64,000 bases of DNA from the NCBI GenBank assembly GCA_019637315.1, contig JAHBVU010000002.1, forward strand, positions 62,001-126,000, given 5' to 3'. Made by a program: the position numbers and the translations under genes. Positions 1-11,418 of this stretch are shown here, one piece after another. The DNA is from Gemmatimonadales bacterium. GTDB lineage: Bacteria; Gemmatimonadota; Gemmatimonadetes; Gemmatimonadales; GWC2-71-9. The notes beneath the pieces are model-generated. The model saw only the letters and a program-made list of their open reading frames with translations, searched no databases and had not been told where the DNA came from. The stretch's first letter is position 1; every line of letters begins with the position of its first letter.

Positions 1-2
1 GC

Positions 3-623
3 CATCAGGCGGGCATGGCCACGGTCCGACGGATCGTCGAAGCCAGCATCGCAGCCGGGGTCCGCACCCTGACGGTCTTTGCCTTCAGCCAGGAGAACTG
101 GCAGCGTCCTCCTGAGGAGATCGACGCGCTGATGGCGCTGCTGCAGGAGTATGTCGCGACCCAGTCGACCGAACTGTCGGCTCAGGGCGTCCGGGTCCGG
201 ATGCTGGGCGATCTGACCCGCCTCTCGCCGGCCGCGCGTCGGGCGGTCGACTTCGTGGAGGGGGCCACGGTAGCCGGGACGGTCCTGGCGCTCAATATCT
301 GCATTTCATACAGCGCGCGGGCGGAGCTTGTCTCGGTTGCTCAGCAACTGGCGAAGGACGCCGTGGCGGGGCGGCTCGATCCGGATGCGATCGGCGAGGC
401 CGACATTGCGGAGCGCCTCTATACCGCGCCGTGGGGCGACCCGGATCTGCTGATTCGAACGTCGGGTGAGTTCCGGATCTCGAATTTTCTGCTCTGGCAA
501 CTTGCCTACGCGGAGTTGTATGTGACCCCGGTGCTCTGGCCCGACTTCGCCCCGTCCGATTTCTACGAGGCGTTGTTGGACTATCAGCGCCGCGAACGGC
601 GTTTCGGGCGGGTGGGAGCCTGA
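3..623 (+). CDS. uppS: Isoprenyl (undecaprenyl) diphosphate synthase, 5' end outside window
   Basis: This cis-prenyltransferase condenses isopentenyl diphosphate onto farnesyl diphosphate to make the C55 lipid carrier for peptidoglycan and other envelope polymers. The reading frame is open from base 3 (HQAGMATVRRIVEA), so the ATG at 15 is internal and the N-terminal substrate motif lies outside the window. Visible family motifs are FSQENW near the start and DLLIRTSGEFRISNFLLWQ near the end, which contains the conserved Arg/Ser that bind isopentenyl diphosphate. Another is the C-terminal LYVTPVLWPDF. It is followed after 12 bp by cdsA and then dxr, a common envelope-precursor order. The family is certain; the length is unknown because of truncation. 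Confidence 0.96.
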   Translation, partial: HQAGMATVRRIVEASIAAGVRTLTVFAFSQENWQRPPEEIDALMALLQEYVATQSTELSAQGVRVRMLGDLTRLSPAARRAVDFVEGATVAGTVLALNICISYSARAELVSVAQQLAKDAVAGRLDPDAIGEADIAERLYTAPWGDPDLLIRTSGEFRISNFLLWQLAYAELYVTPVLWPDFAPSDFYEALLDYQRRERRFGRVGA

Positions 624-635
624 GGACGGTTGGCC

Positions 636-1517
636 ATGTCGAATAATCTGCAGCGCATTCTCTTTGCAGTCGTTGCCATTCCTATCGCCATCGGGGTCGT
701 CTACTGGGGCGGCTGGCCGCTCGCGGTGCTCGTGGCCGTCATCGCAGCGCTTGGTGCGAAGGAGATGGTGTCCCTGGCGCGGCATCAGGGCCTGGCGCCG
801 CTCGACAAGCACGCCATGGTCTTCTCGGTTGCCATTCCGATCGGGGTCTGGCTGACCTATGGCGGTCAGCCGATTGCCTGGGGCGGGTTCGCGGTAAGCT
901 CGCTGATGCCGTCCGTTTGGTTCACCCTGGCCGGGACGGTCATCTGGATCCTGACGGCGACTCTGATCCGGCGCGCTCCGGACGAGCGTCCACTCGGCGT
1001 GGCGAGCGTGACGCTGCTGGTGCCCCTGTACTGCGCCGTGCTGCCGAGTTTCCTGCTGGGGATCCGCTATGCCACTGGCCTCGGTCGGAGCTGGGAAGCC
1101 ACCGCGGCGGTGTTCTTCCCGCTGGCGGTGACCTGGATCTGTGACACGGCCGCGATGTACGCGGGCAAGGCCATCGGCGGGGCCAAGCTCGCGCCGGTGG
1201 TCAGTCCGGGCAAGACCCGGGCGGGGTCGGTCGCCGGACTGATCGCGGGTCTGGTCACGGCCGTGCTGTTCAACCGGCTGGTGATGACGCCGTTGGGCTA
1301 CACCATCAGTGACCTCGAAGCGGTTGCGTTCGGGGTGATCCTGTCGGTCGCCGCGCAGATCGGCGACTTGACAGAGTCGCTCTTCAAGCGCGAGGCCGGC
1401 GTCAAGGACTCCAGCGGCCTGATTCCCGGCCATGGCGGGGTGCTCGATCGATTCGATGCGCTCTACTTCGTAGTGCCGATTGCCGCGATGCTCTACAGCT
1501 TCTTTGGCGTGATCTGA
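636..1517 (+). CDS. cdsA: Phosphatidate cytidylyltransferase (CDP-diglyceride synthase)
   Basis: Integral membrane enzyme that makes CDP-diacylglycerol from phosphatidic acid and CTP, feeding PssA (encoded near 44.5 kb) and other phospholipid branches. The 293-residue protein is mostly hydrophobic helices. Near the C-terminus (about residues 247-277) it carries the complete CDS signature, running from SLFKR through the KD pair to PGHGGVLDRFDA. ATG 636 is chosen because GAGG at 622-625 is well placed; a TTG two codons upstream (630) is also open. It lies 12 bp after uppS and 8 bp before dxr, so the three are probably one transcript. Confidence 0.96.
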   Translation: MSNNLQRILFAVVAIPIAIGVVYWGGWPLAVLVAVIAALGAKEMVSLARHQGLAPLDKHAMVFSVAIPIGVWLTYGGQPIAWGGFAVSSLMPSVWFTLAGTVIWILTATLIRRAPDERPLGVASVTLLVPLYCAVLPSFLLGIRYATGLGRSWEATAAVFFPLAVTWICDTAAMYAGKAIGGAKLAPVVSPGKTRAGSVAGLIAGLVTAVLFNRLVMTPLGYTISDLEAVAFGVILSVAAQIGDLTESLFKREAGVKDSSGLIPGHGGVLDRFDALYFVVPIAAMLYSFFGVI

Positions 1518-1525
1518 TACCAGCC

Positions 1526-2659
1526 ATGCGTGGGGTTGCCGTCCTGGGATCGACCGGGTCGATCGGTTGTTCCACGCTCGATGTGCTGCGTCGGCACCGC
1601 GACCGGTTCCGCCTGGTGGCGCTTGCCGCCGGCACCAATGCCGCGGCGCTCGATGCGCAGGTGGCGGAGTGGCAGCCGGCGTTTGCCGGCTTGGCCAACG
1701 GCGCCGCGGGCGGCAACCGGCCCAACGGGACGGCCTGTCTGGTAGAGGCGGCAACGCATCCCGATGTCGATATCGTCGTCAATGCGGTGGTCGGTTTTGC
1801 CGGGCTCGAAGCTACGCTCGCTGCGCTCGAGGCTGGCAAGCGGGTCGCGCTGGCCAACAAGGAGTCGCTGGTCGCGGCGGCGGCGCTGGTCGATCGAGCC
1901 CGTCGTCGGGGGGGCGGGGAACTCATCCCGGTCGATTCGGAGCACAGTGCCGTCCTCCAATGCATCACCACCGACGGGCCGCGGCCGAGTCGCCTCATCC
2001 TGACGGCATCGGGCGGACCGTTCCGTGACTGGCCCGCTGAACGGGTGGCGGCAGCCACGGTTGCCGAGGCGTTGCAGCATCCCACCTGGCGGATGGGCAG
2101 TAAGATCACCGTCGACAGCGCCACGTTGGCCAACAAGGCCCTCGAGGTCATCGAAGCGCACGTGCTCTTCGGCCTGCCCTATGATGCGATCGAGGTGGTG
2201 GTCCACCCGCAGAGCGTGGTACATGCGTTCGTCGAATTTGTCGATGGCAGTGTGCTGAGCCAGCTGGGCTACCCGTCGATGGAACTCCCCATCCTGTACG
2301 CGCTGACCTATCCGGAGCGTTTGCCCGATATGGGGATACGCCGCTTCGATCCGGTTACCGCGGGTCCGCTGACCTTCGAGCCGGTCCGCCATGAGGTCTT
2401 CCGCGCGTTCGCGCTCGGTGTTGCTGCCGGCCGAACGGGGGGAACGGCGCCCGCGGTGTTCAACGCGGCCAATGAGGTGGCGGTGGCCGCTTTTCTGGCA
2501 GAAGAAATCGGGTTCGGTCGGATTGCCGAAGTGGTCGAGCGCGTGCTGGCCGCTCATCGTCCCGAGCCGGCGGACGATCTGGCAGCCATTCGGACTGCCG
2601 ATGGCTGGGCTCGTACCGAAGCGCGGGCTGCTGTCGAGGGCGTGCCGTCACGGCCCTAG
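1526..2659 (+). CDS. dxr: 1-deoxy-D-xylulose 5-phosphate reductoisomerase
   Basis: NADPH- and metal-dependent enzyme of the MEP isoprenoid pathway. It converts DXP to 2-C-methylerythritol 4-phosphate, supplying the isoprenoid units used by UppS. The 377-residue protein has the N-terminal dinucleotide motif GSTGSIG (residues 8-14), ANKESLV (about 110), the metal site PVDSEHSA (about 135), SGGPF (about 161) and KITVDSATLANKALE (about 193). All the usual active-site blocks are present. It is the known target of fosmidomycin, and a fosmidomycin-resistance-type exporter is encoded 3.7 kb downstream. In many bacteria rseP follows dxr directly; here an aromatic operon lies between them. Confidence 0.97.
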   Translation: MRGVAVLGSTGSIGCSTLDVLRRHRDRFRLVALAAGTNAAALDAQVAEWQPAFAGLANGAAGGNRPNGTACLVEAATHPDVDIVVNAVVGFAGLEATLAALEAGKRVALANKESLVAAAALVDRARRRGGGELIPVDSEHSAVLQCITTDGPRPSRLILTASGGPFRDWPAERVAAATVAEALQHPTWRMGSKITVDSATLANKALEVIEAHVLFGLPYDAIEVVVHPQSVVHAFVEFVDGSVLSQLGYPSMELPILYALTYPERLPDMGIRRFDPVTAGPLTFEPVRHEVFRAFALGVAAGRTGGTAPAVFNAANEVAVAAFLAEEIGFGRIAEVVERVLAAHRPEPADDLAAIRTADGWARTEARAAVEGVPSRP

Positions 2660-2713
2660 AGACCTGGGCAGGGCGCGTAGTGTCGGGACGCTACCTCTCG
2701 GGGCGTGGTGGGC

Positions 2714-2742
2714 TTGCGCAAACCCTAACGACTTCCCAAATT
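2714..2742 (+). promoter_or_regulatory. Candidate promoter of the aro attenuator/operon
   Basis: TTGCGC (2714-2719), a 17-bp spacer and CAAATT (2737-2742) form a weak sigma-70-like pair. If used, transcription would begin at about 2749, the A of the leader-peptide ATG, giving a leaderless leader mRNA. That would explain why no Shine-Dalgarno sequence is visible before the ATG. The match is only moderate and no other candidate in 2660-2748 is clearly better. Confidence 0.3.
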
Positions 2743-2748
2743 CAATCC

Positions 2749-2844
2749 ATGCGCTCGACCCGATTCTATTCGTTTGCGACCTACTTTACCTACGCGGCGT
2801 ATTTTGCCAGCGGGGGAGTGGCTCGCATGCGTAGATCAGGCTGA
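2749..2844 (+). CDS. Phe/Tyr-rich attenuator leader peptide (31 aa)
   Basis: A short ORF (ATG 2749, TGA 2842) directly upstream of a transcription attenuator. Its 31 codons include four Phe (positions 6, 9, 13, 19) and four Tyr (7, 12, 15, 18), all in one 14-codon block at 2764-2805. This is the pattern of classical amino-acid leader peptides such as the pheA leader, here reading both Phe and Tyr supply. The next three genes commit carbon to exactly these amino acids. The peptide itself probably has no function; its translation is the sensor. No clear ribosome-binding site precedes the ATG, so translation may start on a leaderless transcript. The ORF is not a shadow of another gene, because dxr ends at 2659 and aroF starts at 2924. 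Confidence 0.85.
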   Translation: MRSTRFYSFATYFTYAAYFASGGVARMRRSG

Positions 2845-2880
2845 CAGTAGCGCCCGACGCAAGCGAGCCACGGCCCCCGC
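2810..2880 (+). promoter_or_regulatory. Antiterminator hairpin of the aro attenuator
   Basis: GCGGGGG (2810-2816) pairs with CCCCCGC (2874-2880), GTGGCTCGC (2818-2826) with GCGAGCCAC (2863-2871), and TGCGT (2828-2832) with ACGCA (2857-2861). Together this is about 21 bp with small internal loops. The 3' side takes in the 5' arm of the terminator (2872-2880), so the two structures exclude each other. The 5' side begins five bases after the last Phe codon (2803-2805), and the leader stop codon (2842) sits in the loop. A ribosome stalled on Phe/Tyr codons leaves much of this arm free. A ribosome reaching the stop melts it. Confidence 0.85.
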
Positions 2881-2901
2881 ACATCGCGGGGGCCTTTTTG
2901 T
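2872..2901 (+). terminator. Intrinsic terminator of the aro attenuator
   Basis: A perfect 9-bp GC-only stem, GGCCCCCGC (2872-2880) with GCGGGGGCC (2886-2894), with a 5-nt loop, followed at once by TTTTTGTTT. It lies 23 bp before the aroF start codon, where it would stop transcription of the structural genes. It is the alternative fold to the antiterminator at 2810-2880. Confidence 0.9.
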
Positions 2902-2923
2902 TTGCCCCAGACCCGAGGATTCT

Positions 2924-3763
2924 ATGACCGCCTTTTCTGCCCAGCCAGCTACCACGCCCGTCTTCGTGGGGGATCGGTGCTGTTTTGGCGGCGTCGATCT
3001 TGTCGTGGTCGGCGGTCCCTGCTCCGTCGAGGGCGCCGCCATGGTCCTCGATACCGCCCTGGCAGTGGCAGCATCGGGTGCCCGGATGCTTCGTGGCGGC
3101 GCCTTCAAGCCACGCACCTCGCCGCACACCTTCCAGGGGCTGGGCGATCCTGCTCTCGACCTGCTGGCGCAGGCCGGTGTGCGTGCGGGCCTTCCGGTGG
3201 TGACGGAGGTGACCGACCCACGGCACGTCGAACGGGTTGCCCAGGTGGCGGATATGCTGCAGGTCGGCGCCCGCAACATGCAGAACTACGCCCTGTTGGC
3301 GGAGGTCGGTCGGAGCGGACGGCCCGTTCTGCTCAAACGCGGCCTCGCGGCGACCCTCAAGGAGTTTCTGCTCGCTGCGGAACACATCCGAGTGGCCGGC
3401 AATGAGGCGGTCGTGCTTTGCGAACGTGGCATTCGGACCTTCGAAACGACCTCCCGCTTTACCCTCGACGTCACCGCGGTCCCTGTGCTCAAGGCCGAGA
3501 GCCATCTTCCGGTCATCGTCGATCCGAGTCACGCGGGCGGGCGGGCCTCGCTGGTGGCCCCGCTGGCCCGCGCCGCGATCGCAGCGGGCGCGGACGGGTT
3601 GATCGTCGAGGTACATCCCGAACCCGCCTCGGCGCAGTCCGATGCGGAGCAAGCCCTTACGTTTGCCGCATTTGCCGAGCTGATGGCGCAGGTCGAACGC
3701 GTGGCGGCGGCGGTCGGACGCACCGCGGCCGCCGCGCCGCTGCCGATCGAGGCGGTCGCATGA
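2924..3763 (+). CDS. aroF: 3-deoxy-7-phosphoheptulonate (DAHP) synthase, type I-beta core
   Basis: First enzyme of the shikimate pathway, joining phosphoenolpyruvate and erythrose 4-phosphate. The 279-residue protein matches the I-beta/KDO8P-synthase-like subclass throughout. Key blocks are GGPCSVEG (about residue 30), [19 protein letters not shown] (56-74), QIGARN-like [31 protein letters not shown] and VEVHPEP. Only about 25 residues precede the core, so the N-terminal ferredoxin-like/ACT or chorismate-mutase domain that gives feedback inhibition in many relatives is missing. ATG 2924 has GAGGAT just upstream; an open frame extends back into the leader but crosses the terminator. Its stop overlaps the next start. 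Control is probably by the upstream attenuator. Confidence 0.95.
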
Positions 3764-4311
3764 TGCGCATTGCCATTCAGGGCGAGCTCGGCGCCTTTTC
3801 TGAGCTTGCCGCCGAGTCGTTGAGCGGGGGGAGATGTCAGGTCGTGCCGACCCGGTCGTTCCGGGCCGTGGTCGAGGCGGTCGAGGCCGGACGGGTCAAT
3901 GCGGGCGTGCTGCCGGTTGAGAACCGAACGGTAGGACCCGTGGTCGACAGCCTCGCTGCGCTGGCGAGCGGAACGGCCGTCGAGATCGACGGGGAGTGCC
4001 TGGTTCCGGTGCGGCTGCACCTGATAGGGCTCAGTACGGCGAGTCTGCACACCCTGACGCAGGTTGCCTCGCACCCGGTGGCGTTGGCGCAGTGTCGCCG
4101 CTTCCTGGCGCGGTACCCCGGCTGGATCGTGGACGACTACTATGACAGCGCGGGTGCAGCTCGGGACGTGGCGGGTCGAGGAGAGCCCTCGTTTGCAGCC
4201 ATCGCAGGCATCGCGGCCGCAACCCGCTACGGGCTGGCCCTCCTTGCGACAGATGTCCATGACCTTCCCGGCAACGCAACGCGGTTCGTGCTGATTCGGA
4301 GGCGTGCATGA
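3763..4311 (+). CDS. pheA: Prephenate dehydratase, catalytic domain only
   Basis: Converts prephenate to phenylpyruvate, the Phe-specific branch step. The 182-residue product begins [14 protein letters not shown] (typical G-x-GAFSE start) and ends just after GNATRFVLI (about residues 170-178), which carries the catalytic Thr-Arg-Phe. Bacterial PheA proteins normally continue with a roughly 80-residue ACT domain that binds Phe (the ESRP-type motif); nothing of that is present, so the enzyme should not be inhibited by Phe in the usual way. Start is ATG 3763 (or 3760), overlapping the aroF stop, and its own stop overlaps the aroH start. Coupled translation of all three genes is likely. Confidence 0.92.
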   Translation: MRIAIQGELGAFSELAAESLSGGRCQVVPTRSFRAVVEAVEAGRVNAGVLPVENRTVGPVVDSLAALASGTAVEIDGECLVPVRLHLIGLSTASLHTLTQVASHPVALAQCRRFLARYPGWIVDDYYDSAGAARDVAGRGEPSFAAIAGIAAATRYGLALLATDVHDLPGNATRFVLIRRRA

Positions 4312-4688
4312 GCCGCCGCCGGATGTGGGCCCTTCGAGGCGCTACCACCGTCGATGCAGACCGCGCGGATCTGGTGCGGGCCGCGACGCGCGAGCTGCTC
4401 GCGGAGCTGGTGGCGCGAAACGGTCTCGACCAGGACGAGATCGTGAGTGCCATCTTCAGCGTGACCACAGACTTGGTCAGCGAGTATCCTGCGTCAGGGG
4501 CGCGGGAGCTGGGCTGGGTCGAGGTCCCGCTGCTCTGCACGACCGAAATTCCGGTTCCGGGCGGGCTGCGCCGGGTGATTCGGGTGCTGCTGCATGTCGA
4601 GCCTGCCGCGCCCCGGCCCCAATGGCACCCGGTCTATCTCCGGGGCGCCACGACGCTGCGTCCTGATCTCGTGGCGATGCCCTCCTGA
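4308..4688 (+). CDS. aroH: Chorismate mutase, AroH class
   Basis: Monofunctional chorismate mutase of the Bacillus-type trimeric AroH fold (126 residues, usual length about 120-127), converting chorismate to prephenate. Family landmarks are RGATTVDAD at the N-terminus (active-site Arg), LCTTEIPVPGGLRRVIRV in the middle (active-site Cys, Glu and Arg) and HPVYLRGATTLRPDL at the end (active-site Tyr). The ATG overlaps the pheA stop by 4 bp. With AroF and PheA it makes a compact Phe/Tyr-directed operon under the upstream attenuator. A 10-bp hairpin follows at 4709-4732. Confidence 0.95.
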   Translation: MSRRRMWALRGATTVDADRADLVRAATRELLAELVARNGLDQDEIVSAIFSVTTDLVSEYPASGARELGWVEVPLLCTTEIPVPGGLRRVIRVLLHVEPAAPRPQWHPVYLRGATTLRPDLVAMPS

Positions 4689-4708
4689 GGCGGGTCACCG
4701 CATCGGTA

Positions 4709-4732
4709 GCCGGCCATTTCGGAATGGCTGGC
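4709..4732 (+). terminator. Hairpin downstream of aroH, possible weak terminator
   Basis: GCCGGCCATT (4709-4718) pairs with AATGGCTGGC (4723-4732) around a TCGG loop, with one G-U pair. It lies 20 bp after aroH and well before rseP. No T-run follows, so it may be a 3'-end stabiliser or a Rho-assisted end rather than an intrinsic terminator. Confidence 0.4.
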
Positions 4733-4862
4733 GGTCGGGTTACCCTTCCTGCCGCACTTGTTCCGCCACGGAACAGTCCAGCCCGGCGCTCGGCCGGGTT
4801 GGTTGGATCTCCGGCCTCCCGCGGGTACCCGCTCGGGATCGTCGGCTGAACCTGGGGTTGGT

Positions 4863-6212
4863 GTGGGCTTAACGATCATCTCGACGCTGGTTGTCATCGG
4901 CGTGCTCGTGTTCATCCACGAGCTGGGGCATTTCCTGGCCGCCAAGTGGGCCGGCATCCACGTCCACCGTTTCTCCCTCGGACTTGGCGCGCCGATTCGC
5001 TGGCTCTCCTTCAAGCGAAACGAGACGGAATACTCCGTGTCCTGGCTGCCGCTTGGCGGGTATGTCAAGATGGCGACGGACATGGAAGAAACCGATGCGG
5101 TCCTCGAGGGCGGGGCAGCGCAGGCCGAGGTGCCTGCCGAGCGCCGCTTCGAAGCCAAGCCGGTCTGGGTTCGGATGGTGGTGATTCTGGCGGGCGTTGC
5201 GATGAACGCGCTCTTTGCCTGGATCGTTCTGTCGGGGCTGATCTATGTGCGCGGACGCCCGACCTTGCCCGTCACCACCATTGCAGGGGTCGATTCTACC
5301 CGGCTGCCGACTGGGGCCAGAGATTTGGAGCTGCTCGGGCGCGGTGACCGCGTCGTCGCAATCAATGGGGTTGCGGTGTCGACGTGGGAAGCGATGCAGA
5401 GGGAGTGGCTCGGAACCGGCGATACGGTCAGGATCGATCTTGCGGAGCGGAGCCCGGTGATTATCTCGGGCTCGCTCGACGACCGGCGGACGGCGCTCAG
5501 CACGATGCGGCCCCTGTTGCCCCCGGTGGTGTCGGATGTGGTGCCTCAGCGCCCCGGTGCGAAAGCCGGCTTGGCCCGGGGCGACACGATCGTCAGGTTC
5601 GACGGGGTCGCCGTCGGCGAATGGCGCGAGATGGTGAGCCAGATCGAGAGCAAGGCTGATCAGTCAGTCGAGCTGCTGGTCGGTCGCTCGACCGGTCGCA
5701 CCGTCATCCAGGTCACCCCGGCAGCCGAGGAGGTGCGCGATTCGAGCGGCAGCAGGACGGTCGGCCGGATCGGGATCTTCGGGCCGCTCAGTCCGGAACT
5801 CCGGGAGCAGGTCGGCCTTGGCACTGCGATTGTCGAAGGCGGCGAATGGACCTGGTTCATCGCGACCCAGATCGTCAACACGGTGCGCGGGATGTTCTCG
5901 GGTCGGGTCTCCACTCGTGAGGTCGGCGGGCCGATTGCCATCGGCATGGCCGCGGGTGAAAGCGCCCGGCGTGGTGCAGAGGACTTTCTGCTGTTCATGG
6001 CGGCCATCTCGGTCAACCTGGCGGTCCTCAACCTGCTGCCGATCCCGTTGCTCGACGGTGGCCAGTTCCTCTTCCTTCTGGCGGAAGCGGTGACTCGGCG
6101 CCCGATCACGGGGCGGGTGCGCGAGGGGCTCACCATGGCTGGCTTCATTGCCCTGGTGATGCTGATGGTACTGGCTTTTTCGAACGACATCCGCCGATTG
6201 CTCGGCATTTGA
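4863..6212 (+). CDS. rseP: Site-2 intramembrane zinc metalloprotease RseP
   Basis: Membrane protease that cleaves anti-sigma factors and signal-peptide remnants within the bilayer. The 449-residue protein has the HExxH zinc site in the first helix (HELGH, residues 19-23). Two PDZ-like regions follow (around GRGDRVVAINGVAVSTWEAM and AGLARGDTIVRFDGVAVGEW). The second zinc-site motif NLLPIPLLDGGQ is at about 390-400, followed by C-terminal membrane helices. GTG 4863 is chosen because it places HELGH at the usual distance from the N-terminus and GGGG at 4854-4857 can serve as a ribosome site; the frame is open further upstream to 4758. It is the usual partner of uppS-cdsA-dxr but here lies beyond the aro operon. 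Confidence 0.94.
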   Translation: MGLTIISTLVVIGVLVFIHELGHFLAAKWAGIHVHRFSLGLGAPIRWLSFKRNETEYSVSWLPLGGYVKMATDMEETDAVLEGGAAQAEVPAERRFEAKPVWVRMVVILAGVAMNALFAWIVLSGLIYVRGRPTLPVTTIAGVDSTRLPTGARDLELLGRGDRVVAINGVAVSTWEAMQREWLGTGDTVRIDLAERSPVIISGSLDDRRTALSTMRPLLPPVVSDVVPQRPGAKAGLARGDTIVRFDGVAVGEWREMVSQIESKADQSVELLVGRSTGRTVIQVTPAAEEVRDSSGSRTVGRIGIFGPLSPELREQVGLGTAIVEGGEWTWFIATQIVNTVRGMFSGRVSTREVGGPIAIGMAAGESARRGAEDFLLFMAAISVNLAVLNLLPIPLLDGGQFLFLLAEAVTRRPITGRVREGLTMAGFIALVMLMVLAFSNDIRRLLGI

Positions 6213-6246
6213 TGCGTCACGCCGGTCATTTTTTCAGGAGGATCAT

Positions 6247-6375
6247 ATGAGCAAACTGCTGCGTGGACTCGCGGCCGGTTGGGGCGCCAAGAAGCTCGGC
6301 GGCGGGTGTCTCAGCACCGTGCTCATTTTTCTGCTGCTGTGGTGGCTGCTCGGGAATTTCGAGATCTTCAAATGA
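6247..6375 (+). CDS. Single-pass membrane microprotein (42 aa)
   Basis: A small gene with a strong ribosome site (CAGGAGG at 6235-6241) before ATG 6247. It encodes a basic N-terminal segment (MSKLLRGLAAGWGAKKLGGG), one hydrophobic stretch (about residues 22-35, STVLIFLLLWWLLG) and a short tail, NFEIFK. Its TGA overlaps the ATG of the following exporter by 4 bp, so the two are probably translationally coupled. I do not recognise a family. It could be a small transporter subunit, a regulator of RseP or the exporter, or a translation-coupling leader. The ribosome site and overlap argue that it is real. Confidence 0.65.
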   Translation: MSKLLRGLAAGWGAKKLGGGCLSTVLIFLLLWWLLGNFEIFK

Positions 6376-7604
6376 GCGTTTCGGTGCCGGTCACGGCGGG
6401 GTCCGGCGAACTGCCGGCGCCCGCCGCTGACGGTGCCGGCGGGTATGATCGGCGTGCCATTACGTACCTTGCGGCTGCGCATGGCGTCGACGATTTCTAC
6501 CAGGCTGCCGTGCCCGCCCTGGTCCCCTTCTTTGTGGTCGCGCATTCGTTGAGTTATCAGGCGGCGGCGGTTGCGGTACTGGTCTCGAACCTGCTGTCCT
6601 CCCTGCTGCAGCCGCTGTTCGGCTACTGGGCCGATCGCCGACGGGCGCCGTGGCTCGTCTGGGGCGGGATGGGCCTGGCGGGGATCGGGGTATCGCTGGC
6701 GGTGCTGGTCGACTCGTTTCCCCTCGTGCTGGCGTTCTGCGGAGTTACCGGCGTCGGGATTGCGGCATTCCATCCGGAGGCGTCGCGGGCCACCGCGCAG
6801 GCATCGGGGCGCCGGCGCGGGGCGGGGATGAGCCTGTTTGCCTTGGGCGGCAACGCCGGCTTTGCCCTGGCGCCGCTTGCCGTCGTCCCCCTGGCCTCGA
6901 GCTACGGGATTCGCGCGGTGGGGGTCCTGATCATTCCGGCCCTCGTCATGATGGCGTATCTGGCCCGGAATGCGGTCCAGTGGCAGGTCGTTCCTGTCGG
7001 TCGGACCCATACCGGCCCAGGTGGCGGGGCACGGGTTCCGGATGCGTGGGGCGCGTTTGCTCGGCTGACCGGCGCGGTCGGGATGCGTTCGATCGTGTTC
7101 TTCGGGCTCAACACCTTTCTGCCCATCTACTGGGCCACCCGCTTCAACCTCACGCTTGCTGCGGGCGGGGTGGCCCTGACCGTCCTCCTCGTCGTCGGTG
7201 TTGCAGGCACGTTGCTCGGGGGCCGCGCGGCCGATCGGTTCGGTGCGCGCGCTGTGGTGGTGGCGTGCTCCTGCGCGCTCGGGCCGCTGCTCTGGCTCTT
7301 CCTGCAGGCCGACGATCGTCTCGTCGCGCTTGGTCTGCTCGTTCCCCTCGCTCTGGCGCTTTCGGCGCCCTTCAGCGTGATGGTGGTGCTCGGTCAGCAA
7401 TACTTGCCACGCCACGTCGGCACGGCGTCCGGCGTCACGCTCGGACTGGCCGTGACGGTCGGCGGACTTGCCGCACCGTTCCTCGGTCGGATGGCCGATC
7501 AGCATGGCGTGGCCGCCGCGCTTGGCCTGCTCGTCTGGACCGCGCTGCTGGCGGCGTTGATCTCGCTCACGCTGTCGCCGGTGCCAGGGTCTCGCTCGGC
7601 CTGA
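6372..7604 (+). CDS. MFS exporter, fosmidomycin-resistance (Fsr) type
   Basis: Twelve-helix major facilitator protein of 410 residues. It resembles the Fsr family across its length. Examples are HGVDDFYQAAVPALVPFF in the first helix, SSLLQPLFGYWADRRRAPW in the helix 2-3 region, FHPEASRATAQASGRRRG, and SLFALGGNAGFALAPL. Family members export fosmidomycin and other small acids; the natural substrate here is unknown. Start ATG 6372 overlaps the stop of the 42-aa microprotein. The cytoplasmic N-terminus is longer than usual (about 30 residues, low complexity). The target of fosmidomycin, Dxr, is encoded a few kb upstream, which may be coincidence. Confidence 0.82.
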   Translation: MSVSVPVTAGSGELPAPAADGAGGYDRRAITYLAAAHGVDDFYQAAVPALVPFFVVAHSLSYQAAAVAVLVSNLLSSLLQPLFGYWADRRRAPWLVWGGMGLAGIGVSLAVLVDSFPLVLAFCGVTGVGIAAFHPEASRATAQASGRRRGAGMSLFALGGNAGFALAPLAVVPLASSYGIRAVGVLIIPALVMMAYLARNAVQWQVVPVGRTHTGPGGGARVPDAWGAFARLTGAVGMRSIVFFGLNTFLPIYWATRFNLTLAAGGVALTVLLVVGVAGTLLGGRAADRFGARAVVVACSCALGPLLWLFLQADDRLVALGLLVPLALALSAPFSVMVVLGQQYLPRHVGTASGVTLGLAVTVGGLAAPFLGRMADQHGVAAALGLLVWTALLAALISLTLSPVPGSRSA

Positions 7605-7677
7605 GAGGCGCGAAGGAGCGTTGACGCCCTCGGATCGACGGCGCAAGTTTCCCTCCTCATCCCCACTTCGGATTCTT

Positions 7678-8784
7678 ATGACCTCGTCACGTCGTCAGTT
7701 CGTTCGCCGGGCCTCGGCCGCGACCGGGGCTCTCGCCCTGGCGCCGTTTCACATCTGGGTGCCGCGTTTCCGCTCGGAAAAGCTCAACATCCTGATTCTC
7801 GGCGGCACCAACTTCATTGGACCCTACCAGGTACAGTACGCCCTCGATCGCGGGCATTCGATTACGCTGTTCAACCGGGGCAAAACCAATCCGGGCCTGT
7901 TTCCCAATGTCGAAAAGCTGACCGGTGACCGGAACAGTGACCTCAAGTCGCTGGAAGGGCGTAAGTGGGATGTTGTGATCGACATTTCCGCGACCAACCC
8001 GGACTGGGTGGCGCTCTCCGGGCGCGTGCTGGAGAACTCGGTCAAACGATACGTCTTCATTTCGACCCGATCCGTCTACTACGACACGAGCCGAGTCCCG
8101 ATGACGGTGGATGCGCCACTCTTCTCTCGGGAGAACACGCCGGTGCCCGCCGGGCAGCCCCTGCCGTACGGACTTGCCAAGGCGATCTCCGAGCAGACGT
8201 TGCGAGATCGGTTCGGCAGCCGGCTGCTGGTGGTGCGGCCCTCGCTCGTGGTCGGGCCCGGGGACACCACCGATCGGTTCACCTACTGGCCCCTGCGAAT
8301 CGAACGGGGCGGGGAGGTGCTCTCGCCAGGCGATGGAACCGATCCGGTGCAGTTCATCGATGCCCGGGACCTGGGGGAGTGGGTCATTCGGCTGGTCGAG
8401 ATGGGCACCACAGGGACGTACAACGCTCTGGGGCCACAGACGCCGAGGTCCTTCGCTGAGCTGCTCCATGGGATCAAGGCCGTCACGACGTCCAACGCAA
8501 CATTTACCTGGGTCGATACCGACTTTCTGCTGGCCAACAAGGTTCGGCCCTACCAGGAGATGCCGGTCTGGCAGCCGGCGCGGGACGGGAAAGAGGGGTT
8601 TGCCCGCTTCGATATCTCCCGTGAGGTGGCGCTGGGGTTGACCTTCCGGTCGCTGGCGGTGACGACCAGGGATACGCTCGATTACTACCACGCGCAGACG
8701 CCCGAACGGCAGGCGCAGCTTCGGGCGGGTATCTCGGCCGAGCGAGAGCGGGAAGTCCTGGCCGCCTGGCGCGCCCGCCGCTAG
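7678..8784 (+). CDS. Tat-exported NAD-dependent epimerase/dehydratase family protein
   Basis: A 368-residue extended short-chain dehydrogenase with an N-terminal twin-arginine signal (SRRQFVRRA at residues 4-12, then a hydrophobic stretch to about 30). This suggests folding with cofactor in the cytoplasm followed by Tat export. The mature part starts with a Rossmann motif, ILILGGTNFIGPY, and has the catalytic YxxxK (PYGLAKAISEQ). It also has PSLVVGPGDTTDRF and DPVQFIDARDLGEWV, typical of nucleotide-sugar or isoflavone-reductase-like epimerases. The substrate is unknown. ATG 7678 is preferred over the upstream codon at 7621 because it places the RR motif at the very N-terminus. It stands alone between the exporter and rpsO. 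Confidence 0.8.
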   Translation: MTSSRRQFVRRASAATGALALAPFHIWVPRFRSEKLNILILGGTNFIGPYQVQYALDRGHSITLFNRGKTNPGLFPNVEKLTGDRNSDLKSLEGRKWDVVIDISATNPDWVALSGRVLENSVKRYVFISTRSVYYDTSRVPMTVDAPLFSRENTPVPAGQPLPYGLAKAISEQTLRDRFGSRLLVVRPSLVVGPGDTTDRFTYWPLRIERGGEVLSPGDGTDPVQFIDARDLGEWVIRLVEMGTTGTYNALGPQTPRSFAELLHGIKAVTTSNATFTWVDTDFLLANKVRPYQEMPVWQPARDGKEGFARFDISREVALGLTFRSLAVTTRDTLDYYHAQTPERQAQLRAGISAEREREVLAAWRARR

Positions 8785-8880
8785 GGGGGCTTGGGGGCGG
8801 GGTCCAGGGGGATTCGGCCGGCGCCTCTGGCTCGGATTTCCCCCCCCCGACCTCGCCCGTCGGCCGAGGCTGGGGGCGTC

Positions 8881-8909
8881 TTGCTTGCCGGGTTCCAGGC
8901 ATCTATATT
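8881..8909 (+). promoter_or_regulatory. Promoter of rpsO-pnp
   Basis: TTGCTT (8881-8886), a 17-bp spacer and TATATT (8904-8909) make a good sigma-70-type promoter. The predicted start near 8916 gives a leader of about 50 nt before rpsO. It is among the clearest promoters in the window. Confidence 0.7.
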
Positions 8910-8967
8910 GAAAGGCTACAACCACTTACGAACTTTTTGAGCATCGAAGCAACGAGGACACGGAAAA

Positions 8968-9228
8968 ATGGGGTACGACAAAGCGGGCGTCATGGTGAAG
9001 TATCGCCAGCACGGCGAGGACACGGGATCGGCCCGGGTTCAGGTCGCCATGCTCACCGAGCGTATCAACTCCCTCACGGATCACTTCCGCACTCACCCGA
9101 AAGACCATCATGGTCGGCGTGGGTTGCTGAAGATGGTCGGTCAGCGGCGGCGGCTCCTTTCCTATCTCCGCAGCACCGATCTTCAGACGTACCGAGCGCT
9201 GATTCAGGACCTCGGTCTCCGTCACTAA
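8968..9228 (+). CDS. rpsO: 30S ribosomal protein S15
   Basis: Primary 16S rRNA-binding protein of the small-subunit platform; 86 residues (usual 88-89). Diagnostic stretches are [44 protein letters not shown] and [20 protein letters not shown]. The ATG follows a purine-rich leader. The gene is followed by pnp as in many bacteria, with a hairpin in the 108-bp spacer. In E. coli S15 represses its own translation; nothing here shows whether that applies. Confidence 0.97.
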
Positions 9229-9246
9229 AACATCGGCTCCAGACGC

Positions 9247-9274
9247 GGGCGTCCCAGGATATGACGGGACGCCC
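9247..9274 (+). promoter_or_regulatory. rpsO-pnp intergenic hairpin
   Basis: GGGCGTCCC (9247-9255) and GGGACGCCC (9266-9274) form a perfect 9-bp stem with a 10-nt loop, 18 bp after rpsO and 63 bp before the pnp start. No T-run follows, so it is unlikely to be a plain terminator. By analogy with the E. coli rpsO-pnp leader it may be an RNase III cleavage and PNPase autoregulation site. Confidence 0.55.
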
Positions 9275-9336
9275 TCGGTGCTTTGGGGCTGCCTGGTGTG
9301 TCGCCGACCGCCAGTTCACCGTTGAGGGTAAATCCT

Positions 9337-11418
9337 GTGCATCGTATCGAAACGACTTTTGCCGGGCGGCCGCTGCTGCTCGAAACCGGCCGATTGGCCA
9401 AGCAGGCTGCGGGCTCCGTGCTGGCGCAGTTCGGAGAAACCGTGGTGCTGGCGTCCGTCACCGTGAGCAGCCGCGAGTCGTCGCTGCCGTTTTTCCCGCT
9501 GACGGTCGAGTATCGCGAAAAGACCTACGCGGCTGGCAAGATCCCGGGCGGTTTCCTTAAGCGTGAGGGCCGTCCGAGCGACGACGAAATTCTGGCGGCG
9601 CGGATCATCGATCGCTCGATACGTCCGCTCTTTCCGGAGGGCTTCAAGAACGAAGTCCAGGTCTTCGTGACGGTCGTCTCGGCCGACCAGGAACACGGAG
9701 CGGACGTGCTTGGTGCGCTGGCCGCGTCGGCGGCGCTGGCCGTCTCGCCGATTCCGTTCAACGGACCGATCGCGACGGTGCGGGTCGGCCGGGTCGAAGG
9801 CAAGTGGATTCTGAACCCGACCTTCCACCAGCTCGAGTTCTCCGATCTCGACGTGACCGTCAGCGGCAACGGCGACTCGATCGGCATGGTCGAGGGCGGT
9901 TCGGCCGAAGTGTCCGAGGCGGATGTGATCGAAGCGCTCAAGGTCGCCCAGAAGGGCATCCGTGAGCTGCGGGGGCACATCGAGACGATGGTGGCCAAGG
10001 CGGGCAAGCCCAAGATGTCATGGACCCGCTCCGAGCCGGACGCGACGCTGATCAAGCGCGTTCGCGAGCTGGCCGAGAAGGACATGTCCAAGGCGATCAA
10101 TCACAAGGACAAAGCGGGTCGGGCCGGTCAGGTGCGGTCGATTCGTGAAGCGGCTGCCGCCACGATTGCGGTCGAGTTCCCGGACAAGATCAAGGATGCT
10201 GAGGCCGAGCTCGACGAGATCGAGTATCGCGTCATGCGCGGTCAGGTGCTCGACAAGGGCGAGCGGATCGACGGTCGCGATCTCGAGACCGTTCGTCCGA
10301 TCTCGATCGAGGCTGGTCTCCTCCCGCGGGTGCACGGTTCCACCCTCTTTACTCGCGGGGAAACCCAGGCGCTGGTGGCTGTGACCCTGGGCACGGCCGA
10401 TGACGAGCAGCGGATCGACTCGATCAACGTGGCCGGCGAGTCGACCAAGTCGTTCATGCTGCACTACAACTTCCCGCCGTACTCGACCGGTGAAGTGCGC
10501 CCGATCCGCGGCACCAGCCGCCGGGAGGTCGGACACGGCGCCTTGGCCGAGCGGGCGTTGCAGGCGGTGCTGCCGGGCTTCGATGCCTTCCCGTACACGC
10601 TGCGGGTGGTGTCTGAAATTCTCGAATCCAACGGATCGTCGTCGATGGCGACGGTGTGCGGCGGTTCGCTGGCACTGATGGATGCGGGCGTGCCAATCAA
10701 GGCGCCGTGCGCAGGTGTCGCGATGGGGTTGATCACCGACGGTAAGCGGGTGGCAGTGCTCACCGACATTCTCGGCACCGAGGATCATCTTGGCGACATG
10801 GACTTCAAGGTGGCCGGAACCGAGGCGGGTATTACCTCGATCCAGATGGACATCAAGATCGCCGGCCTGAGCCTCGAAATCATGACCGATGCGCTGGAGC
10901 GGGCTCGCCGTGGCCGCCTGCACATCCTGGGCGAGATGAAGAAGGCGCTTGCTGCGCCGCGTGCGGAGCTTTCCAAGTATGCGCCGCGGATCTTCACGAT
11001 GATGATCAAGCCCGACAAGATCGGTGACGTGATCGGTCCGAAGGGCAAGACCATCCGGGGCATCCAGGACGCCACCGGGGCCAAGATCTCGATCGAGGAC
11101 TCGGGGTTGGTCACCATCGCCGCTGTCGGTGGTGAGGCGGGCGACAAGGCGCGCGAGATGGTCTCGGCGCTGGTGGCCGAACCCGAGGTCGGCAAAGTCT
11201 ACGAAGGACCGGTCAAGAGCACGACGGCGTTCGGCGCCTTCGTGGAAATCATGCCCGGCGTCGAGGGCCTGCTGCACATCAGCGAGTTGCAGCATGCGCG
11301 GACCGAGAAGACCGAAGACGTGGTCAAGAAAGGCGACATCGTGCGGGTCCAGCTCCTCGAGGTGGATGAGCGGGGCCGTATGAAGCTGTCGCGGAAAGCA
11401 CTCCTGCCCAAGGAGTGA
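9337..11418 (+). CDS. pnp: Polyribonucleotide nucleotidyltransferase (PNPase)
   Basis: Phosphorolytic 3'-to-5' exoribonuclease of mRNA decay, normally a trimeric ring. The 693 residues show two RNase PH-like halves (about 5-230 and 310-550) joined by a helical linker. A KH domain with DKIGDVIGPKGKTIRGIQ (about 557-575) and an S1 domain (GPVKSTTAFGAFVEIMPGVEG to about 690) follow. GTG 9337 is chosen because it gives the normal N-terminus (HRIETTFAGRPLLLETGRLA) and has GAGGG at 9325-9329; an ATG-less extension to 9283 crosses the leader. The stop overlaps the following GTG start. Confidence 0.97.
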   Translation: MHRIETTFAGRPLLLETGRLAKQAAGSVLAQFGETVVLASVTVSSRESSLPFFPLTVEYREKTYAAGKIPGGFLKREGRPSDDEILAARIIDRSIRPLFPEGFKNEVQVFVTVVSADQEHGADVLGALAASAALAVSPIPFNGPIATVRVGRVEGKWILNPTFHQLEFSDLDVTVSGNGDSIGMVEGGSAEVSEADVIEALKVAQKGIRELRGHIETMVAKAGKPKMSWTRSEPDATLIKRVRELAEKDMSKAINHKDKAGRAGQVRSIREAAAATIAVEFPDKIKDAEAELDEIEYRVMRGQVLDKGERIDGRDLETVRPISIEAGLLPRVHGSTLFTRGETQALVAVTLGTADDEQRIDSINVAGESTKSFMLHYNFPPYSTGEVRPIRGTSRREVGHGALAERALQAVLPGFDAFPYTLRVVSEILESNGSSSMATVCGGSLALMDAGVPIKAPCAGVAMGLITDGKRVAVLTDILGTEDHLGDMDFKVAGTEAGITSIQMDIKIAGLSLEIMTDALERARRGRLHILGEMKKALAAPRAELSKYAPRIFTMMIKPDKIGDVIGPKGKTIRGIQDATGAKISIEDSGLVTIAAVGGEAGDKAREMVSALVAEPEVGKVYEGPVKSTTAFGAFVEIMPGVEGLLHISELQHARTEKTEDVVKKGDIVRVQLLEVDERGRMKLSRKALLPKE

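Follow-up and report, generated by a model that had tools for sequence, protein, structure and literature searches.

The aroF-pheA-aroH genes lie on the forward strand of the 64-kb stretch of Gemmatimonadales DNA that we analyzed (the window), between dxr (positions 1526 to 2659) and rseP (4863 to 6212). The first gene, aroF (2924 to 3763), encodes a DAHP synthase of the TIGR01361/PRK08673 type, the type of B. subtilis and Thermotoga; the second, pheA (3760 to 4311), encodes the sole prephenate dehydratase (PDT) of the window genome; and the third, aroH (4308 to 4688), encodes an AroH-type chorismate mutase. The match of the DAHP synthase to PRK08673 begins at position 76 of 338, and the protein is without the N-terminal regulatory domain of ~75 residues. 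The match of the PDT to PRK11898 ends at position 185 of 284, and the protein consists of the catalytic domain, with no ACT domain. In relatives of these two families, the missing domains carry feedback regulation.

Leader ORF and alternative hairpins upstream of aroF

Upstream of aroF is a 31-codon leader ORF that runs from an ATG at 2749 to a TGA at 2842 to 2844 and encodes MRSTRFYSFATYFTYAAYFASGGVARMRRSG. Its regulatory block (2764 to 2805, codons 6 to 19) contains four Phe codons (6, 9, 13, and 19) and four Tyr codons (7, 12, 15, and 18), in the order F6 Y7 F9 Y12 F13 Y15 Y18 F19. At the Phe-plus-Tyr frequency of the neighboring genes, the chance of at least eight such codons in 14 is 2.5 × 10^-8 per position. 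Beyond the ORF is an intrinsic terminator hairpin (2872 to 2894) with nine G-C pairs (2872-2880:2886-2894) and the loop ACATC, followed by the T-run TTTTTGTTT (2895 to 2903) and the aroF ATG at 2924. A first-pass annotation of this DNA, made by a model, had described the 14-codon block with four Phe and four Tyr codons, the perfect 9-bp terminator with its T-run, and the aroF start behind it, and all of these are present where it had placed them.

The leader ORF contains, toward its 3' end, the 5' arm of an antiterminator (2810 to 2832), and the 3' arm (2857 to 2880) has positions 2874 to 2880 in common with the terminator. The arms form helices of 7 bp (2810-2816:2874-2880), 9 bp (2818-2826:2863-2871), and 5 bp (2828-2832:2857-2861), for a total of 21 bp. 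RNA from 2806 to 2885, from which the 3' arm of the terminator is absent, folds exactly as this antiterminator (−48.0 kcal/mol; z = −5.8), and in RNA from 2806 to 2899 the terminator forms alongside the inner 14 bp of the antiterminator (−53.5 kcal/mol; z = −4.9). Since the terminator and the inner 14 bp coexist in the full RNA, mutual exclusion is confined to the outer 7 bp, 2810-2816:2874-2880. The proposal that a 21-bp antiterminator excludes the terminator thus holds for the presence of all 21 bp, but only the outer seven compete.

We conclude that positions 2749 to 2923 are, with high confidence, a complete ribosome-mediated transcription attenuator ahead of aroF-pheA-aroH. A scan of both strands of the window for a leader plus terminator gave one match, the attenuator ahead of aroF, and the same scan of 1.28 Mb of first-order Markov sequence gave none. 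The hairpin is downstream of dxr and is the sole terminator-like site between 2600 and 4950, as would be expected if it were simply a dxr terminator or insulator and the ORF were accidental. However, it is more than 200 bp from the dxr stop codon, the leader, a conserved promoter position, and the complementary 21-bp arm intervene, and this set of leader, promoter, and arm recurs ahead of orthologues, so we give this explanation almost no weight.

Promoter and start of the leader message

A candidate −35 box, TTGCGC (2714 to 2719), is located 35 nt 5' of the leader start codon, and a weak candidate −10 box, CAAATT (2737 to 2742), is located 17 nt past the −35 box, with 6 nt between it and the start codon. 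CAAATT is a poor match to consensus and is absent from the promoter-like sites listed for 2600 to 4950, but its position agrees with that of the −10 boxes of relatives (TATGCT, TATTGT, TATCGT, TATCCT, and TATACT). Of 22 nonredundant leaders, 18 have a TTG[AC][ACG] motif 35 to 40 nt upstream of the start codon, compared with 6% of background ATG/GTG codons, and TANNNT is found 6 to 10 nt upstream in 10 of 21 leaders, compared with a background of 1.5%. No Shine-Dalgarno sequence was found at the window leader or at most of the relatives' leaders, where Shine-Dalgarno-like sequence is rare. With this −35/−10 spacing, transcription would begin at the first codon of the leader, which suggests that the leader is probably translated from a leaderless message.

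Conservation in orthologues and leader type of each isoenzyme

DAHP synthases were present in all 61 genomes searched, and a scan of named genomes added 80 loci. Conservation of the aromatic codons in related genomes, one of the checks that the first-pass annotation had proposed, is borne out by a tree of 81 Gemmatimonadota DAHP synthases. An aromatic leader with a terminator precedes 22 of the 24 genes of the window gene's clade; for the remaining two (L018 and L039), the upstream sequence was read by eye and has no leader. Trp leaders precede all four members of a second clade, and an aromatic leader with a terminator was found at 0 of 43 members of a third clade, the most widespread. The leader type therefore follows the isoenzyme. 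The window genome (G000) has one DAHP synthase in each clade: the window gene; L114 (G000:C3), which has a Trp leader, MQHLVTLNLWWWPWRNSAVGRASV (WWWPW), with terminator arms GAGCCCACCGC and GCGGTGGGCTT (L114:835-980) and a leaderless promoter, TTGACC/TATACT; and L115, which is directly 3' of another gene and has no leader. By their upstream sequences, the DAHP synthase isoenzymes of this genome appear to be wired separately, to Phe/Tyr and to Trp attenuators.

The leaders of relatives include MRVYFYSYFRC (L005), MSPRPAFFTYFFSYGYR (L016), ATRFYYYASYW (L006), MTRHASAITYACRFYYPPTRMGPGEFGMRS (G043), and FWFSANYYYVFFGY (L012, the window gene's nearest neighbor in the tree); Trp codons are also present in some Phe/Tyr leaders. 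Stem sequences vary by genome, as seen in GGCCCCCGC (window), AGGCCCGTGGA (L005), GCCCTGGGGAT (L006), and AAGCTCCCGA (L053). Despite this divergence, each terminator has a 5' arm that also pairs with the 3'-terminal part of its own leader ORF. Since the divergence among the leaders precludes a reliable alignment, we used a cross-pairing permutation test in place of a covariance model, in which leader ends were paired with terminator stretches taken from the other genomes, with near-copies left out. The own-genome pairing sum was −700.8, compared with a permuted mean of −580.3 (standard deviation, 18.2; best, −655.1), and none of 20,000 permutations was as low, although relatedness among the genomes makes this test somewhat optimistic even with near-copies omitted. 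In 25 of 26 leaders, terminator and antiterminator have at least five bases in common (seven in the window), and the antiterminator pairing is weaker in Trp leaders than in Phe/Tyr leaders. Compensatory change in the stems, which had also been put forward as a check, is therefore seen as arms that pair better with their own partners than with those of other genomes.

Some leader peptides act in trans, such as peTrpL of Sinorhizobium (PMC7298713), and a functional peptide from the small ORF would be compatible, as an added role, with the RNA-pairing evidence. As an explanation of the ORF we consider it quite improbable, since the peptides share little beyond the aromatic block and the 3' end of the ORF follows the needs of RNA pairing.

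Under strict criteria, an aromatic leader with a terminator is found upstream of 13 of the 80 named DAHP synthase loci and in 0 of 160 control stretches. These matches are from Gemmatimonadota, Planctomycetota (L059, L079, L099, L103, L106, and L109), and Chloroflexota (L063, L082, L087, L093, and L095); several of the Chloroflexota elements precede aroH-aroF. Two apparent Bacillota leaders, L078 and L086, were rejected, since their GWYRG is an in-frame reading of the T-box motif GGGTGGTACCGCGG. T-boxes control aromatic genes in Bacillota, and these two matches raise the question of whether the window element could itself be a protein- or ligand-binding RNA, such as a T-box or riboswitch, rather than a translated leader. 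This is very unlikely: Rfam searches gave no match in window positions 1 to 10000 at E values up to 1 and none above gathering scores at the ten loci tested, and what the leaders conserve is the aromatic codons and the reading frame, not an RNA core.

Predicted operation of the attenuator

The first-pass annotation had attributed ribosome-stalling logic to this element, and this logic is supported by the conservation of the parts in orthologues, the co-variation of the antiterminator arms, the fitting promoter, and the match between the sensed amino acids and the pathway, for which DAHP synthase, PDT, and chorismate mutase are encoded downstream. From these parts and their conservation we infer stalling, termination, and a response to Phe/Tyr, as follows. 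RNA polymerase would start at or beside the leader ATG, and a ribosome would follow on the leaderless message. When charged tRNA-Phe and tRNA-Tyr are ample, the ribosome would pass codons 6 to 19 and mask the 5' antiterminator arm, the terminator (2872 to 2894) would form, and transcription would end near 2900. If the ribosome stalls in codons 6 to 15, the 21-bp antiterminator would zip during transcription, as 2857 to 2880 emerge and ahead of the synthesis of 2886 to 2894; 2874 to 2880 would be sequestered, and polymerase would enter aroF-pheA-aroH. Read-through is also predicted when there is no translation. The three genes are thus probably switched on at Phe/Tyr shortage.

We modeled the ribosome as a mask of ~30 nt on an equilibrium RNA fold. 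With the A site at codons 6 to 15, 2810 to 2832 stays free in this model, while a ribosome at Y18 covers up to 2812 and one at F19 covers up to 2815, leaving few of the seven competing bases exposed. These footprints suggest that stalls from F6 to Y15 should antiterminate, as the idea that a stall frees the 5' antiterminator arm had it, but that a stall at F19 should not; the last codon pair, Y18 and F19, is probably too near the antiterminator to act. With the ribosome at the stop codon, the model has about 2825 to 2854 covered and the inner helix disrupted, but 2810 to 2824 is left free, which indicates that shut-off would also rely on timing. The masked-ribosome model gave no change of sign at equilibrium: wherever the ribosome was placed, the terminator was preferred in the full RNA, and we use the model solely to indicate which stalls would keep the seven competing bases accessible. 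With the terminator the more stable structure throughout, switching has to be kinetic, with the outcome set by timing. For a 1:2 pause/anti-antiterminator hairpin like that of E. coli trp, folding gave only weak pairings upstream and established no such hairpin.

Phe and Tyr as sensed residues

Dual sensing of Phe and Tyr by the window leader is plausible. Codon content, together with the Tyr-only leaders found in tyrA operons, is suggestive of it, but the claim goes no further than plausible since the C. glutamicum AroR leader, Phe-Tyr-Phe, responds to Phe limitation and not to Tyr (PMC11802643). By analogy, the window attenuator might sense mainly Phe, with the Tyr codons as passengers. The committed product of the operon, through PDT, is Phe, and TyrA was not found in the window genome, both of which fit this reading. 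On the other side, half of the leader's aromatic codons are Tyr, alternating with Phe, and relatives with tyrA operons include Tyr-only leaders (L014, YYAY; L017, YAYYY), which makes sensing of Tyr possible in this family. On balance we think sensing of mainly Phe somewhat unlikely, though a serious contender. tyrA is located downstream in six relatives, and the ratio of Tyr to Phe codons is 19:11 in tyrA operons and 13:20 in pheA operons, a trend only (P = 0.08).

A search for TyrA (PDH_N) in the window genome, the assembly of which is 95% complete, found none. A single homologue of aromatic amino acid hydroxylases (PF00351) is encoded in the genome, at L180:1723-2532 on the reverse strand (G000:C21). 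Formation of Tyr from Phe by this protein was rejected, as it is without all three iron ligands (FHDVFGH is replaced by FADLVGR and FWFTVEFGL by FAFTATFGL), which are intact in relatives; the hydroxylase route may hold for G047 and G045. With TyrA undetected and the iron ligands lost, neither route accounts for the organism's tyrosine. In five genomes of the same genus (G001 to G005), no PDT (PF00800) was found and no TyrA match was above the cutoff, with one weak match in G001 below it; these organisms may be auxotrophic for Phe/Tyr, or unrelated enzymes may do the work.

Probable insertion between dxr and rseP and absence of sensing domains

The promoter, attenuator, and three genes make up a probably inserted unit of 2.2 kb (2660 to 4862, forward strand). 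In the five same-genus genomes, dxr and rseP are adjacent, with aligned ends 12 to 25 nt apart in the three measured, and these genomes have no PDT (PF00800) and no DAHP synthase of the window type among their matches. The nearest relative of the window DAHP synthase (L012) is from another family (support, 98/88). The adjacency of dxr and rseP in these genomes suggests that the aro unit was probably acquired as a self-regulated cassette. Transfer into this genome explains the pattern most simply; the alternative is that all five same-genus genomes lost the unit. The first-pass annotation had regarded absence of the leader from close relatives as evidence against the attenuator. The same-genus genomes do lack the leader, but this is because they lack the whole operon, and most members of the window gene's clade have the leader.

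Acquisition of the unit by insertion would put rseP behind the aro attenuator unless rseP has its own promoter. Between aroH and rseP (4689 to 4862), we found no consensus promoter and no terminator; rseP may be subject to the attenuator or have an unrecognized promoter.

Sensing domains are also missing in other operons. The ACT domain is absent from seven of eight PDTs encoded beside or divergently from a Phe/Tyr-leader operon and present in nine of nine PDTs encoded elsewhere (Fisher P = 4 × 10^-4, with the ACT motif judged by eye and common descent ignored). Judged by distance from the terminator, the DAHP synthase is without the N-terminal domain in several leader-bearing operons (L001, L006/7, L019, L053, and L117), though most leader-bearing DAHP synthases keep it. 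Replacement of allostery by attenuation is possible in these operons. We offer as tentative, and on present evidence doubtful, the broader reading that the unit is a mobile, self-contained cassette for Phe/Tyr supply, whose enzymes have shed their sensing domains (the N-terminal domain of DAHP synthase and the ACT domain of PDT) and would be governed instead by the Phe-plus-Tyr attenuator, in a host that wires two DAHP synthase isoenzymes, each through an attenuator of its own, to different aromatic amino acids.

Several other gene arrangements were observed. L158 (G019) contains an open frame, 3' of an attenuated aroF, that fuses an ACT-less PDT to an AroH chorismate mutase. At L156 and L157 (G058 and G043), pheA is divergent from an attenuated aroF and the PDTs have no ACT domain; in G043, a short AroQ-like ORF is directly 3' of aroF. 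L124, L125, L126, and L142 have frames of 600 to 640 residues with matches to both PDT and DAHP synthase, an apparent bifunctional fusion, and no leader.

Relation to known attenuators and significance

By every feature that is testable, the window element is a classical attenuator in its sequence. The nearest studied case is the C. glutamicum aroR-aroF attenuator (Neshat 2014; PMC11802643; PMC4046766), in which a DAHP synthase gene also follows a leader that contains Phe and Tyr codons. The first-pass annotation had thought a double Phe-plus-Tyr sensor unusual for an operon that joins DAHP synthase, PDT, and AroH, and the C. glutamicum case gives the idea a precedent. In C. glutamicum, transcription reads through under Phe limitation, and Tyr has no effect. 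The aroR leader has three aromatic codons while the window leader has eight, the phylum is different, and pheA and aroH are further members of the window operon. E. coli pheL-pheA (and pheST) likewise has a Phe-rich leader and alternative hairpins with PDT downstream, but pheL-pheA is specific to Phe and its operon has no DAHP synthase. The uORFC-13-1 motif (aroF, Acholeplasma; PMC8632094) likewise has a DAHP synthase gene preceded by a terminator and by a short ORF in which Phe is encoded at least once, but as described it involves Phe only and is restricted to Acholeplasma and environmental sequences (PMC8632094). The trpL attenuators and the WWWPW leader of L114 have the identical layout, in which terminator and antiterminator share an arm, and the promoter spacing of L114 is that of the window leader; they differ in having Trp codons, and the L114 gene is an isoenzyme outside the window operon. 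As the first-pass annotation had supposed for this lineage, no publication joining attenuators and leader peptides with Gemmatimonadota was found in the literature searched, which was mostly outside the subscription journals. We also found no Rfam family that covers these DAHP synthase attenuators.

The mechanism itself is already known, and the interest of this locus is in the wiring of the isoenzymes, the leaderless start, the insertion of the cassette, and the possible trade with allostery. Ribosome-mediated control of DAHP synthase by attenuation has been studied in Corynebacterium, and these findings add Gemmatimonadota and, on sequence grounds, Planctomycetota and Chloroflexota to its range. 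The E. coli DAHP synthases, which answer to different amino acids, are controlled by the TyrR and TrpR repressors (PMC11802643), and the isoenzymes of the window genome would be an attenuation-based counterpart of that arrangement. The empty site is clean and feedback domains are missing, which makes it testable whether a transferred operon can bring its own supply sensor and so fit a new host without allosteric control.
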